From NCBI GenBank assembly GCA_021777555.1, contig JAJYDK010000009.1, forward strand, positions 46,352-110,351: a stretch of DNA of 64,000 bases. Reading direction: 5' to 3'. Under the pieces are notes generated by a model, which searched no databases, was not told the DNA's origin, and saw nothing but the letters and a program-made list of their open reading frames with translations. Position 1 is the first letter of the stretch. Every line of letters starts with the position of its first letter. This DNA comes from Pseudomonadota bacterium (GTDB taxonomy: Bacteria > Pseudomonadota > Gammaproteobacteria > Steroidobacterales > Steroidobacteraceae). Below are positions 9,755 to 15,322 of this stretch, one piece after another. The position numbers were made by a program, and so were the translations under genes.

Positions 9755-11449
9755 TCAGGTCTTGGGCAGCGTCACGCCCCGCTGCCCTTGGTACTTGCCG
9801 CCCCGGTCCCTGTAGGAGGTCGCGCACACCTCGTCCGACTCGAAGAACAGCATCTGCGCCACGCCCTCGTTGGCGTAGATCTTCGCCGGGAGCGGCGTGG
9901 TGTTGGAGAACTCCAGCGTGACGTGCCCCTCCCATTCCGGCTCCAAGGGCGTCACGTTCACGATGATGCCGCAATTGCGGACGAAGACACCTGCCTCGAG
10001 TGCGAAATTGCCAGCCTCCGGAACCGTCAAACAATAGACGTCGTGCTCGCCGGGCAACTCTCTGATCGCAGCGACCTTGTGATTTCGGTAGGCAGGAGTG
10101 CCTCGAAAGCCCGCAAGCACTTGTGGGAATCGGCGGAAAACCGAACGGTCGCAGTGCAGCAGCGCCGCCGCGCCACGGATGGAGCCCGTTTCGTCGAGCG
10201 CAGAACGCGCGCGGTCCGCAGTGATTTCATCCCGCAATTTGATCCGCCGCGCGATCTCGGCCTGCCTTTGTCGCCGCGTCCCATCGTCAGCGGCCCATGC
10301 GCGCATCATTCGCTGTGCGTGCCTTTCCCGCTCGGCCGGATCCGCGAATCTCCTGAACATCGCGCCGCGATGAGCCTCTCGTGTGACATCACTCTGATTT
10401 CGCCGAGCCTCCATGAGGCGTGCGCGGACAGCGGCGTACCGCTCACTGCCCCAGAAGGCATAGGCGCGCGCGCTCTGCACTGCCGCAAAGTGCGCTCGCC
10501 ACTCGGGGTTCAGCGCACGGCGCGCGAGCGCATCGCGGATGGCGGCGCCGTGCTCCTCTGGACTGAACGCTTCTCCGTAGTTCGCCTCGTTATGCAGCCT
10601 AATGTGATCGGACGCCGCCATCCTGATCAGGTTCGTCGGCCGATTGTTGCGGCGATTAAAAACCATGTGATGCCGATGGGTACCGGAAGTGTCCGAATAA
10701 ATGGCGTGTCTCAGATTCCATTCATCGGCAAGGCGATGCGTCGCATGCATGTACCCGTCGATCGGCTGATACACCGTCTCGTAGCCCCTGACGAGGTCGC
10801 GGTAGAGGGGCATCAGCGCGTCGCCCGGACGGAGTGTCTGAGCTTCGGCCATCCGGCCATCGCGGCGCATGAACTGGTGATCCGCCGTGGCATGGATGCG
10901 CCGCCCATCGTCCAGCTCGATCTCGAGCAGCGAGTCACGCCCGATATATCGGGGCACATCGAGCAGGGACACGATCAACCGACCATTCGGCCCGATGCTG
11001 TAGCCCCAAAAGAGTTCGCCGGAATCGTGGCGGCGCGCCATTTCCTCTAGCGTCGGCGCGGTGCCGTCCACCAACGCCACACGCGTGTCTCCGCGGAAAC
11101 ACCTCGCATAGGTCGACTTGCCGAGACAGACAGTGAGCACGCTGCGTGGAATCCGGAAGTACTCCACGGTGCGCGCCAGCGCAAAGGAATTCGGTGGAAT
11201 CACGCATACATCTGACTTGAGATCCACGAAACTCTTCTCGTCGAAAGCCTTCGGATCGACGATGGTGGAGTTGATGTTGGTGAAGATCTTGAATTCATCC
11301 GCACAGCGGACGTCGTAACCGTAGCTCGACGTACCGTAGGAGACGATCTTGTGGCCATCGACGTAGCGAACCTGCTCGGCCGCGAACGGCTCGATCATAC
11401 CGTGATCGCGCGCCATACGACGGATCCAGTGGTCTGATTTGATGCTCAT
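9755..11449 (-). CDS. dcd: dCTP deaminase precursor containing an intein
   Basis: Deaminates dCTP to dUTP for thymidylate synthesis. The frame encodes 564 residues, but the two outer parts together give 188 residues, the normal length of the beta/gamma-proteobacterial Dcd. N-extein: residues 1-116, starting [12 protein letters not shown] (ATG 11449) and ending GKSTYAR. C-extein: residues 493-564, starting [19 protein letters not shown] with the catalytic Glu in TLEFSN and ending GVTLPKT. The 376 residues between them are an intein. The extein joins at STYAR/CG, a conserved active-site motif, so unspliced protein should be inactive. Start 11449 is preferred over a 27-codon upstream extension because MSIKSD is the standard beginning. 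Confidence 0.95.
9974..11101 (-). mobile_element. Intein with HNH endonuclease inside dcd
   Basis: In-frame protein-splicing element, precursor residues 117-492 (376 aa). Start: Cys117 (TGT) in [14 protein letters not shown], the intein block A pattern. Block B: HATADHQF (T188, H191). C-terminal blocks: [20 protein letters not shown] then Arg491-Asn492, followed by extein Cys493. The terminal Asn and both Cys nucleophiles are present; the usual penultimate His is Arg. Central HNH endonuclease region at about 256-286: HRHHMVF...NNRPTNL...DHIRLH. Residues 292-400 are Arg/Ala-rich helices, and 408-445 ([20 protein letters not shown]) look like a helix-turn-helix. By hand count 63 of 120 bases at 10621-10740 are G/C, lower than the flanking gene, consistent with separate origin. 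Confidence 0.93.
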
Positions 11450-11589: not shown

Positions 11590-12699
11590 TCACTTCTTCT
11601 CTACGACGATCTTGGGGAAAACACCGCTGTGATCGAGCGGCCGCAGTGCGAGCGCTCCGGCCGTGCGCCGCGCCATATCGAGATAGGCTCGCGCGCGCGG
11701 CGAGTCGGGAGCGGCGATCACCGTCGGCTGTCCGCCGTCGGCCTCCTCCCGGATGCGCACATCGAGCGGCAGCTCACCGAGGAGCCTCACGCCGTACTGC
11801 GCGGCCATGCGGGCGCCGCCGCCCTCGCCGAAGATATGCTCGGCGTGCCCGCACTTCGAGCACACGTGCACGCTCATGTTCTCCACGATGCCGAGCACCG
11901 GCACCGAGACCTTCTCGAACATCTTCAGTCCCTTGCTCGCGTCCGAGAGCGCAATGTCCTGGGGTGTCGTCACGATCACCGCGCCCGCCACGGGCACCTT
12001 CTGCGCGAGGGTGAGCTGAATGTCGCCCGTGCCCGGGGGCATGTCGACCACGAGATAATCGAGCTCGCCCCACTGGGTCTGGGACAGAAGTTGGCTCAAC
12101 GCCTGAGTGACCATCGGGCCGCGCCACACCATGGGCTGGTCGGCGTCCACGAGAAAACCGATGGACATGGCCGCCACGCCGTGTTTCTTCAGCGGCTCGA
12201 TGTGCTTGCCGTCGGGCGAGACGGGCCGCTCGCCCGCGAGACCGAGCATCAGCGGCTGGCTGGGTCCGTAGATGTCCGCGTCCAGCACCCCGACCCGCGC
12301 CCCCTGGCGGGCCCAGGCGAGGGCCAGATTGGCCGCCACCGTGGACTTGCCCACCCCGCCCTTGCCGGAGGCGACGGCGACGATGTTCTTGATCTTCCCG
12401 AGCGGCTGCAGGGGCCTCTGCACCGCATGCGCCCGGATCTGCGATTCCACCGTGACGCGCACCGACTCGGCATGCCCGGCCGAGCGCAAGTGCTTCTCGA
12501 TCTGCTCAGCCAGCTCCTCCTGGTAACCCCCGACCGGGAAGCCGAGGACGATTCGGGCGGCATAGCCCCCCTCCACCGCCGTCAGCCCGCGCAGCGCGCC
12601 GGCCTCACGCAGCGTCTGGTGCAGATACGGGTCGGCGTAGGACTCGATCGTCGAGCGCAGACCGTCCAGAATGGGATCGTCGGCAGAATCTTCGGCCAT
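11590..12699 (-). CDS. apbC: Mrp/ApbC family iron-sulfur carrier ATPase
   Basis: P-loop ATPase that holds and transfers Fe-S clusters. 369 residues from ATG 12699 (an in-frame upstream Met at 12738 is less likely). N-terminal MIP18-like domain (about 1-90), then the deviant Walker A GKGGVGKST, LDADIYGPSQP, VDMPPGTGDIQLTLAQ, and the paired cysteines CSKCGH that bind the bridging cluster. In E. coli the orthologue lies beside metG; here metG is 5 kb away with the kinase and two PilT-like genes between. Upstream intergenic region is shared with the divergent kinase gene. Confidence 0.94.
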   Translation of the reverse strand: MAEDSADDPILDGLRSTIESYADPYLHQTLREAGALRGLTAVEGGYAARIVLGFPVGGYQEELAEQIEKHLRSAGHAESVRVTVESQIRAHAVQRPLQPLGKIKNIVAVASGKGGVGKSTVAANLALAWARQGARVGVLDADIYGPSQPLMLGLAGERPVSPDGKHIEPLKKHGVAAMSIGFLVDADQPMVWRGPMVTQALSQLLSQTQWGELDYLVVDMPPGTGDIQLTLAQKVPVAGAVIVTTPQDIALSDASKGLKMFEKVSVPVLGIVENMSVHVCSKCGHAEHIFGEGGGARMAAQYGVRLLGELPLDVRIREEADGGQPTVIAAPDSPRARAYLDMARRTAGALALRPLDHSGVFPKIVVEKK

Positions 12700-12946
12700 G
12701 GGACCTTGCAGCGCGGCGGCAGTGGCGAGGGGGAGCATATTCTAGTGGCTCGATCGGCAATACGCATGGGCGAGCTGCGGCAGAGTGCCGCCGCCCCGGC
12801 TATGGCATACTTCCCGCACGTCCCCGCAGAGCCCTCAGAAACTCGAGCCCGGTGACCCGGGAGCAGCCCAGGTCGTTCCGCGGCATCAGGGAGCAACGAA
12901 GCGGGGCTCACGGGGGAAGCAGCGGAGTGCCTCGGCAGATCGGCTG

Positions 12947-15322
12947 ATGAGTTTTTTCACCAATGTGCGCGCCGACCGGTTGATCACCGGCATCCGGTCA
13001 TCGGCGGACCCGGCGAGCGCGGACACCCAAAAATCCATCGCGCGCCTGAAGGACTTGGGTCCGGGCGCCATCGGCCCGATCCTGGCGGCCCTCCCCGAAG
13101 CGGACAAGAACGCCACGCTCGCCCTGGTGGAGGTGCTGGCGCACCTGGTGGGCCCGAAGACCTTCCCCCAATACGTGCAGGGACTGGTCGAAGGCAGTCC
13201 GCGGGTGGTCGCCGGCATCGGCTGGGCCCTCACCAGCAGCCGCAATTTCCCGCCGCAGCTGCTCCTGGATGCGCTGGCCACCCCCGGGGTCGCCAAATCC
13301 AAGGTGCTCGAGGTCATCGCAGCCCACAAGTCGCGCTTCACGGTGCGCGAGCTGCTGAATGCCGCCTACACGCAGGAGCCGAACGAGAAGGCCGCGCTGT
13401 TTCGCATCATCGGGGAGCTGGCCGGCCCGAGCGTCCTGCCCGAGCTCATCCAGCGCCTGCACGGCAAGGACCCCATCGCGCGCGTTCACATCATCAACGT
13501 TCTCGCTCGCTTCAGCACGCCGGAGGTGCACCTCGCCCTGCAGAGCCTGCTGACGGACCCCAACAAGCTGATCCGCGGGGCCACCCTCTCGGCGTTGCAG
13601 CGCATGGACGGGGCGATCGACGTCGAGAAGGTCTGCCAGCTGCTGAAAGACCCCGAGATCGAGGTCCAGAACAAGGCGGTCGACGTCGTCATCAAGGCGA
13701 ACGACCCGGAGACCATCCGCTACCTGATCGAGGTACTCAAGGACGAGAGCGAGGGCGCCCGGCGGGCGGCGGTCGAGGTGCTGAACGAAGTCGGCGACGC
13801 CAAGTCGGTGAAGCACCTGCTCGGTGCGCTCAAGGACAGCGACTGGTGGGTGCGCTCGCGGGCGGCCGACGCCCTCGGCAAGATCGGCGGTCCACGGGTC
13901 ATCGACGCGGTGCTGCAGCTCGTCAAGGACAAGGAGGAGGACATCCGCCGCGCCGCCATCGAGATCCTGAATCAGACCAAGGACGAGCGCGCCGTCGAGT
14001 CGCTCATCCAGGCCACCCGCGATCCGGACTGGTGGGTGAGCGAGCGCGCGGTCGATGCGCTCGCGGAAATCGGCAGCAAGCGGGCCGTGCCCCGGCTGCT
14101 CGAGATGCTCAAGGAGAGCAAGCCCAAGGCCATGCCGATCGTGGTGCGCGCCCTCGGCAAGCTCGGCGATGCGCAACTTGCCACCACGCTCATGCCGCTG
14201 CTCGGCAGGCCCGAGCGGGAGCTGCGGATCGAGGTCATGCAGGCGCTCGCCCATGTGGCCGATGCGCCGAGCGCCGAGTCCGTGCGCACGCAGCTCAAGG
14301 CGCAGGCGAGCACCGCCGATCAGACGATCGCGCGCGCCGCCGAGGCGGCCCTCGCCGATCTCGAGCGGCGCCTGGCGGGTGGCCCCGCGACCTCGGAAAT
14401 CATCCTGCCGCAATCCCCGCTGCCGCCCGCGGTGGGGCCCGAGGCGGCGCGGGCGGGCGCGAAGGAAACGGCCGCGCTCGACATCCAGACCCTCAAGCCC
14501 GGGGACATCCTCGAAGGCCGCTACAAGTACCTCGACCGCATCGGCAAGGGCGCCTTCGGCACCGTGCTGCTGATGGAGGACACGGTGGTCGATGAGCGGC
14601 TGATCCTGAAGTTCCTCAATCCCAATGTGGCGACGGACGAAGAGGTGATGAAGCGCTTCGTCCACGAGCTGCGCTACTCGCGCAAGATCACCCACCACAA
14701 CGTCATCCGCATCTACGACTTCCTTTTCATCCAGGGCAATTACGCCATCTCCATGGAGTACTTTCCCTCGCACACCCTCGGGAGCGAGATCACCGGGGAG
14801 AAGCCCCTGCCGCTGAAGCGTGCGCTGCAGTTCGGCATCGACATCTGCACCGGCATGGTGGTTGCCCACCAGGCGGGCATCGTGCACCGCGACCTCAAGC
14901 CCGCGAATGTGCTGATCAACCAGGAGGGGCTGCTCAAGATCGTCGATTTCGGTGTGGCCGCCGCACAGCGCGAGAGCGAGACCCAGCTCACCCGCACCGG
15001 CTACGTGATCGGCTCGCCGAAGTACATGGCGCCCGAGCAGATCCTCGGCAAGCGGGTCGATGAGCGCGCCGACATCTACGCCCTCGGCGTCATCCTCTAC
15101 GAAATGCTCACCGGCACCCCGCCCTACTCGCGCGGCGACCACATGTCGGTCATGTATCAGCACGTGCAGGGCAAGGCCCGCCCGCCCCAGGAGATCAACC
15201 CGGCCCTGCCGCCCGGCCTCTCGGATATGATCATGCGCGCCATGGCGGTCGATAAGGCCAAGCGCTTCCAGAACATGGGCGAGGTGCGCATGGCGCTCGA
15301 GAGGTATCTGAGGAGCGCCTGA
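12947..15322 (+). CDS. HEAT-repeat protein fused to a serine/threonine kinase
   Basis: 791 residues from ATG 12947. Residues about 15-480 form tandem HEAT/PBS-like helical repeats, for example DWWVRSRAADALGKIGG and DWWVSERAVDALAEIGS. A Pro/Ala linker follows, then a Hanks-type kinase from about 515: glycine loop IGKGAFGTV, VAIK-type Lys in LILKFL (near 554), catalytic HRDLKPANVL (near 645), DFG (near 666), APE in MAPEQ, and DIYALGVILYEMLTG. All catalytic elements are present, so it should be active. No membrane segment is visible; expected in the cytosol. It precedes two PilT-type ATPases on the same strand (122-base gap), suggesting a link to surface motility or its control, but substrates are unknown. 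Confidence 0.92.
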   Translation: MSFFTNVRADRLITGIRSSADPASADTQKSIARLKDLGPGAIGPILAALPEADKNATLALVEVLAHLVGPKTFPQYVQGLVEGSPRVVAGIGWALTSSRNFPPQLLLDALATPGVAKSKVLEVIAAHKSRFTVRELLNAAYTQEPNEKAALFRIIGELAGPSVLPELIQRLHGKDPIARVHIINVLARFSTPEVHLALQSLLTDPNKLIRGATLSALQRMDGAIDVEKVCQLLKDPEIEVQNKAVDVVIKANDPETIRYLIEVLKDESEGARRAAVEVLNEVGDAKSVKHLLGALKDSDWWVRSRAADALGKIGGPRVIDAVLQLVKDKEEDIRRAAIEILNQTKDERAVESLIQATRDPDWWVSERAVDALAEIGSKRAVPRLLEMLKESKPKAMPIVVRALGKLGDAQLATTLMPLLGRPERELRIEVMQALAHVADAPSAESVRTQLKAQASTADQTIARAAEAALADLERRLAGGPATSEIILPQSPLPPAVGPEAARAGAKETAALDIQTLKPGDILEGRYKYLDRIGKGAFGTVLLMEDTVVDERLILKFLNPNVATDEEVMKRFVHELRYSRKITHHNVIRIYDFLFIQGNYAISMEYFPSHTLGSEITGEKPLPLKRALQFGIDICTGMVVAHQAGIVHRDLKPANVLINQEGLLKIVDFGVAAAQRESETQLTRTGYVIGSPKYMAPEQILGKRVDERADIYALGVILYEMLTGTPPYSRGDHMSVMYQHVQGKARPPQEINPALPPGLSDMIMRAMAVDKAKRFQNMGEVRMALERYLRSA

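Follow-up and report, generated by a model that had tools for sequence, protein, structure and literature searches.

A predicted intein in the chromosomal dCTP deaminase gene of a Steroidobacteraceae bacterium, with empty, full-length and shortened copies in one genus

How could a gene for dCTP deaminase (Dcd), which produces building blocks for DNA, still supply that enzyme when it is interrupted within a conserved motif? The question is raised by a 64,000-nt stretch of DNA from a Steroidobacteraceae bacterium (assembly GCA_021777555.1, contig JAJYDK010000009.1, positions 46,352-110,351 of the forward strand; hereafter the window), in which dcd is a single open frame of 564 codons (9755-11449, minus strand).

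The interrupted dcd gene and its intein

Residues 1-116 and 493-564 of the predicted product together form a 188-residue dCTP deaminase that belongs to the Dcd family by its matches to PF22769 (1.1e-28), TIGR02274 (3e-40) and PDB entry 4dhk. The match of 4dhk to the precursor (E 1.2e-101) is split into two parts that meet at the Cys of STYAR-CGIIV, and by this alignment an in-frame deletion of the insert leaves an intact and conserved Dcd. The N-extein, which ends in LGKSTYAR, occupies 11102-11449 (116 codons), the C-extein, which begins CGIIV, occupies 9755-9973 (72 codons and the stop), and the 376-codon insert that begins with Cys and ends in Arg-Asn lies between them at 9974-11101, all on the minus strand; we call this insertion point site b. 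A preliminary description made from the sequence had reported the continuous frame, the 188-residue Dcd left upon removal of the insert, and an insertion point in the conserved STYAR/CGIIV segment just ahead of a Cys native to the enzyme, each of which the frame and the 4dhk alignment bear out.

A gene for an Mrp/ApbC-type ATPase (mrp, 11590-12738, same strand) adjoins dcd, and purM, purN and a DUF3108 gene lie on its other flank. Next to mrp is a gene (12785-15322, plus strand) whose 845-residue product has HEAT repeats and, after them, a protein kinase domain. The host genome is a 4.0-Mb draft (97.4% complete, 117 contigs) in which this is the only intein found and the window gene the only Dcd found; the idea that another dcd copy renders the insert harmless was rejected, as the other PF22769 match in the genome is a dUTPase. 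The gene had also been called essential, a label that we do not retain: it is the sole Dcd found, yet dcd mutants of E. coli are viable.

The insert matches Pfam Intein_splicing (6.5e-14) and NCBIfam intein_Nterm (2.2e-8), and its sequence and predicted fold both identify a Hint splicing domain. It comprises an N-terminal splicing region (intein residues 1-106, 10784-11101) and an endonuclease region (residues 107-336, 10094-10783), with boundaries set by us, and a C-terminal splicing region (residues 337-376, 9974-10093), all on the minus strand. A structure model of the precursor had a mean pLDDT of 66.1 and a pTM of 0.48, with the exteins mostly below 50, and because its extein part is poor we conclude nothing from it about the fold of the enzyme within the precursor.

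The intein has the class 1 set of Cys1, a block B TxxH (T72-A-D-H75, 10877-10888, minus strand, assigned by sequence and conservation), a terminal Asn376 and, at +1, the enzyme's own Cys. Block names follow common usage in part and otherwise that of PMC5050341. The assisting histidines that are typical of class 1, though not defining, are both absent: the penultimate residue is Arg375 (9977-9979), and in the 12-residue block F a Cys (Cys357, 10031-10033; both codons on the minus strand) stands at the usual place of Asp and Gly364 at that of His. Because both are missing, the window intein is not a canonical class 1 intein. The earlier proposal of an intein with class 1 nucleophiles is upheld by these residues and by the Intein_splicing match, and its wider claim of class 1 chemistry holds for the nucleophiles and fails for the canonical form. 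A class 3 assignment, which the block F Cys might suggest, was rejected: class 3 inteins have no nucleophile at residue 1, where the window intein has Cys, and of their Trp-Cys-Thr triplet in blocks B, F and G (described in the available portion of PMC5050341) only the Cys is found here, with no Trp in block B and Val374 in place of Thr.

Cys1 is found in all 126 full-length rows of the alignment. Among the 120 matches listed, one of which is the window's own cluster, Cys1 and the block F Cys and Gly are each present in 120, the terminal Asn is present in 119 (P0113 has Ile), and a block F His is present in none. The penultimate residue in these 120 is Arg (39), Lys (26), His (23), Gln (16), Ser (11), Gly (4) or Glu (1), as counted by pattern for 116 and by eye for 4. 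At 20 loci from genome contigs it is His (12), Lys (3), Arg (3) or Ser (2), and all 20 have the block F Gly.

From these residues, splicing of the window protein would likely begin with an attack by Cys1 on the Arg-Cys bond that precedes the intein, after which the N-extein would pass to the enzyme's own Cys, cyclization of Asn376 would free the intein, and a normal peptide bond would come to join the exteins. For the cyclization step, neither of its usual aids, the penultimate histidine and the block F histidine, would be available. We hold with high confidence that dcd of this chromosome contains a 376-residue intein between STYAR and the native Cys, that the intein is predicted to excise itself and leave a 188-residue enzyme, and that its HNH region likely once served to spread it.

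The HNH region and the stages of the homing cycle

The endonuclease region contains an HNH motif (intein residues 142-171, 10589-10678, minus strand) that was identified by conservation and by a match to a PHROG HNH endonuclease (5.2e-6 over intein residues 139-182). The Pfam HNH models, including PF13392 (HNH_3), gave no match to the window copy; PF13392 matches the intein of cyanophage CL131 at 6.4e-9. Further along, a conserved 21-residue stretch that is helical in the model (10127-10189, minus strand) is a possible DNA-binding helix-turn-helix. The HNH histidines and asparagines are near-invariant across the 126 full-length rows. Position 147 is Asp in 124 of them; the other two rows are the window protein, where the codon is GTT (Val; 10661-10663, minus strand), and the database copy of that same protein. 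Val147 is the window's sole departure from the 93% consensus of these rows anywhere in the intein, and it may impair the endonuclease.

We propose that the HNH region probably acted in the past on dcd genes lacking the intein, cutting them and so spreading the element; homing by the window copy itself is an inference only. A special case of this reading, to which we give even weight, is that the intein splices, its endonuclease is already dead, and the copy persists only through the need to splice. Besides Val147, this is suggested by the other inteins of the genus, where 2 of the 18 copies read are full length (376 residues; the window and G900) and the other 16 are shortened in this region, to a total of 190-307 residues. 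The G900 copy (locus L106), the only other full-length one, has Pro150 and Ser157 in its HNH motif, as does L012, at positions that are otherwise near-invariant.

The selection pattern bears on both readings. By the NG86 method, with many pairs near saturation, dN/dS in pairs among L012, L059 and L061 was 0.76-1.26 in the endonuclease region, 0-0.29 in the splicing regions and 0-0.10 in the exteins (the L059-L061 C-extein had too few aligned codons), a pattern to be expected if splicing remains a requirement and the endonuclease has become dispensable. The window-L012 pair gave a dN/dS of 0.12 for the endonuclease region, against 0.03-0.04 for the splicing regions. The former value indicates that most of that divergence arose under constraint, which counts against a dead endonuclease, and the importance assigned to Asp147 comes from its conservation.

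Distribution, a neighboring intein and the empty site

A scan of genome contigs gave 25 loci, of which 21 (L007-L027, with L018 a fragment) lie in Dcd at this site and 4 in other proteins; the titles of the 21 name Gamma- and Betaproteobacteria, Chloroflexota (Anaerolineaceae, Caldilineaceae, Oscillochloris) and one Deinococcales metagenome-assembled genome (MAG). Dcd flanks were seen at 1 of 25 loci in the viral-contig scan (L032, on the contig of L005). That contig encodes a Dcd with this intein in a form of 317 residues (L005:2088-3608), and its dcd has neighbors with PHROG matches to thymidylate synthase, a sigma factor, a DNA methyltransferase and replication initiation. Eleven phage records matched the intein, CL131 being the only one with an annotated dCTP deaminase, and a single plasmid record matched, with a gyrB intein.

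The presence of the intein is patchy at close range. A site was scored as empty when the match ended at the Cys in a frame too short for an intein, or when the joined site was read. In a sample of 120 genomes from the family, 17 have this intein (2 of these with a second one), 7 have only an upstream intein, 86 are empty and 8 have no Dcd match, with G007 and G099 left unjudged. Of 58 genomes sampled from the genus 47 matched, and these comprise 17 with this intein only, 1 with both, 1 with the upstream intein only, 21 empty and 7 unjudged. With few candidates scored per genome, the class sample gave any match in 8 of 369 genomes (this Dcd intein in 4, the window's own included) and the phylum sample in 1 of 398, the window itself.

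More distant relatives of the intein occur in other proteins (L028, L029 and L033-L056), one of them GyrB-like and many of them viral with the flank ALK(V/I)P; where the C-terminal end was read, most of these copies have the block F His missing from the Dcd family. In a Chloroflexi MAG, the start of a related intein follows the flank VGYDIG (L030:623-1084). This flank resembles that of RtcB, which fits the match of the window intein to NCBIfam NF052663 (RtcB_rel_intein2). Among curated intein-bearing models NF052663 scores best, at 118 bits for the intein and 129 for the precursor; its host protein is RtcB-like, and the window score is far below the whole-protein cut-off of 1050.

The upstream intein (allele a) lies in the same gene, five residues before the window's site, and is absent from the window. 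It was found as LGK^C...HN^STYAR (the caret marking a splice junction), with 303-410 residues, in 9 of the 120 matches listed (P0020, P0021, P0027, P0031, P0035, P0081, P0086, P0087 and P0117), each of which also has the site b intein; L016, L072 and L073 are further doubles. It is of LAGLIDADG type (LAGLIDADG_3 was found in that of P0117), has Ser at +1 and ends in His-Asn in most copies read. Double carriers thus have a LAGLIDADG-type intein at GK^STYAR and an HNH-type intein at STYAR^C, with only STYAR left between them as a five-residue extein. The upstream intein stands alone at L074-L080 and L115 (7 family genomes and 1 of the same genus), again with Ser at +1. A narrow search of the open-access literature found no paper on inteins a few residues apart.

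G896 offers a natural empty site, in a 3.3-kb stretch that is collinear with the window (92-95% identical) and from which exactly the intein is missing (extein dS 0.37). In a tree of Mrp plus Dcd from 34 same-genus genomes, built by a quick method with 5 of 39 loci dropped, the window falls in a starred group with the empty G896 and G899, beside three carriers of mini-inteins. Intein presence on this tree requires at least 9 changes, 6 of them forced by starred branches, and is weakly clustered (44 of 500 shuffles were as low).

Both a gain of the intein by the window lineage and its loss from G896 and G899 would fit these data. A recent gain, suggested by the empty nearest relatives, was not established: an AU test did not reject one clade of the window intein with the inteins of its host-tree sisters (p 0.506), and mismatches between the window and G896 are not raised beside the insertion site, so that co-conversion from a distant donor was not seen. 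A low GC3 of the N-extein (0.75) was rejected as its sign, the empty relative G899 having 0.655. Splicing-region dS of 1.12-1.49 to L012, L059 and L061 (0.55-0.81 for extein and mrp) also suggested a recent gain but did not establish it, since dS to L063, L065 and L066 is 0.72-0.81, near that of the host genes. Transfer of the intein is clearer in betaproteobacteria, where L007 and L009 have exteins 94% alike and inteins 65% alike, and L009 and L011 have exteins 86% and inteins 87% alike.

This distribution bears on another explanation, that the intein is retained as a switch by which redox state or stress controls Dcd through the three cysteines at the splice junctions and in block F. Cys1, Cys357 and the +1 Cys are indeed conserved, but a patchy presence that includes empty closest relatives is unlike that of a needed switch, and regulation of Dcd by the intein is a supposition; we consider this explanation improbable.

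Known Dcd inteins and implications

The closest known system is the Dcd intein of gp069 of cyanophage vB_AphaS-CL131, which is excised in E. coli according to the available portion of PMC6293099. Like the window intein, it occupies STYAR^C...N^CGII, combines Hint and HNH regions and has a block F Cys and Gly with a non-His penultimate residue (Lys); unlike it, it resides in a phage gene and has 352 residues, with 36% identity in the intein and 45% in the exteins. Its published limits, 133-483 in that text, omit Cys132, and we read it as 132-483 (L006:3391-4446).

That the insert does not splice, leaving a broken or bulky Dcd, is in our view very improbable. The penultimate and block F histidines are missing and splicing of the window protein is a prediction from its sequence, but the CL131 intein excises with the same non-His pattern, the L012, L059 and L061 trio keep their splicing regions while the endonuclease decays, and no other Dcd was found in the genome. 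An assembly or binning chimera, conceivable in a draft of 117 contigs, is extremely improbable, as the layout is identical in the 119 other listed matches and in loci from other genomes and the window flanks are collinear with G896.

The same host gene carries an intein in archaea: the dtd (Dcd) allele is listed for 6 Halobacteria and 0 Bacteria in a table in the available part of Soucy et al. 2014 (PMC4071816), and the likeness to the window is one of host gene, deoxycytidine triphosphate deaminase. Mycobacteriophage class 1 inteins in other host proteins have penultimate Gly, Lys or Ser, with splicing demonstrated for one (RDF, Gly), and the penultimate His, which varies in phage inteins, may be replaced in its role by a block F His further upstream (available portion of PMC5050341); the Dcd family, CL131 included, also lacks the block F His. 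A search of the open-access literature surfaced the CL131 and Halobacteria papers and none on bacterial chromosomal Dcd inteins, and the available text of PMC5371798 and PMC7412058 has no Dcd intein. Some database entries are already named, for example, "deoxycytidine triphosphate deaminase/intein/homing endonuclease", and the same insertion point was found in CL131 and many bacterial entries. The case had been put forward as noteworthy, which needs correction in view of Halobacteria, CL131 and the many bacterial database sequences; by sequence, the window intein is a further example at a site already occupied in other bacteria and in a phage.

Somewhat more tentatively, at a little short of even confidence, we suggest that site b Dcd inteins make up a large bacterial lineage whose splicing dispenses with both Asn-cyclization histidines, so that the penultimate residue can drift, that some members have a second intein five residues upstream so that STYAR is a full extein that has to be ligated on both sides, and that within one genus the empty, full-length, decaying and mini stages of homing occur together.

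The range of Dcd inteins, described from phage and Halobacteria, is extended by these findings to chromosomes of bacteria, and within a single genus the empty, full-length and mini states of one allele can be compared. That the endonuclease decays neutrally next to a splicing region that stays conserved is natural evidence of a need for splicing in vivo. The loss of both assisting histidines across the lineage makes their substitute a directly testable question, and the five-residue middle extein of the doubles is an unusual test of the minimum spacing between inteins.
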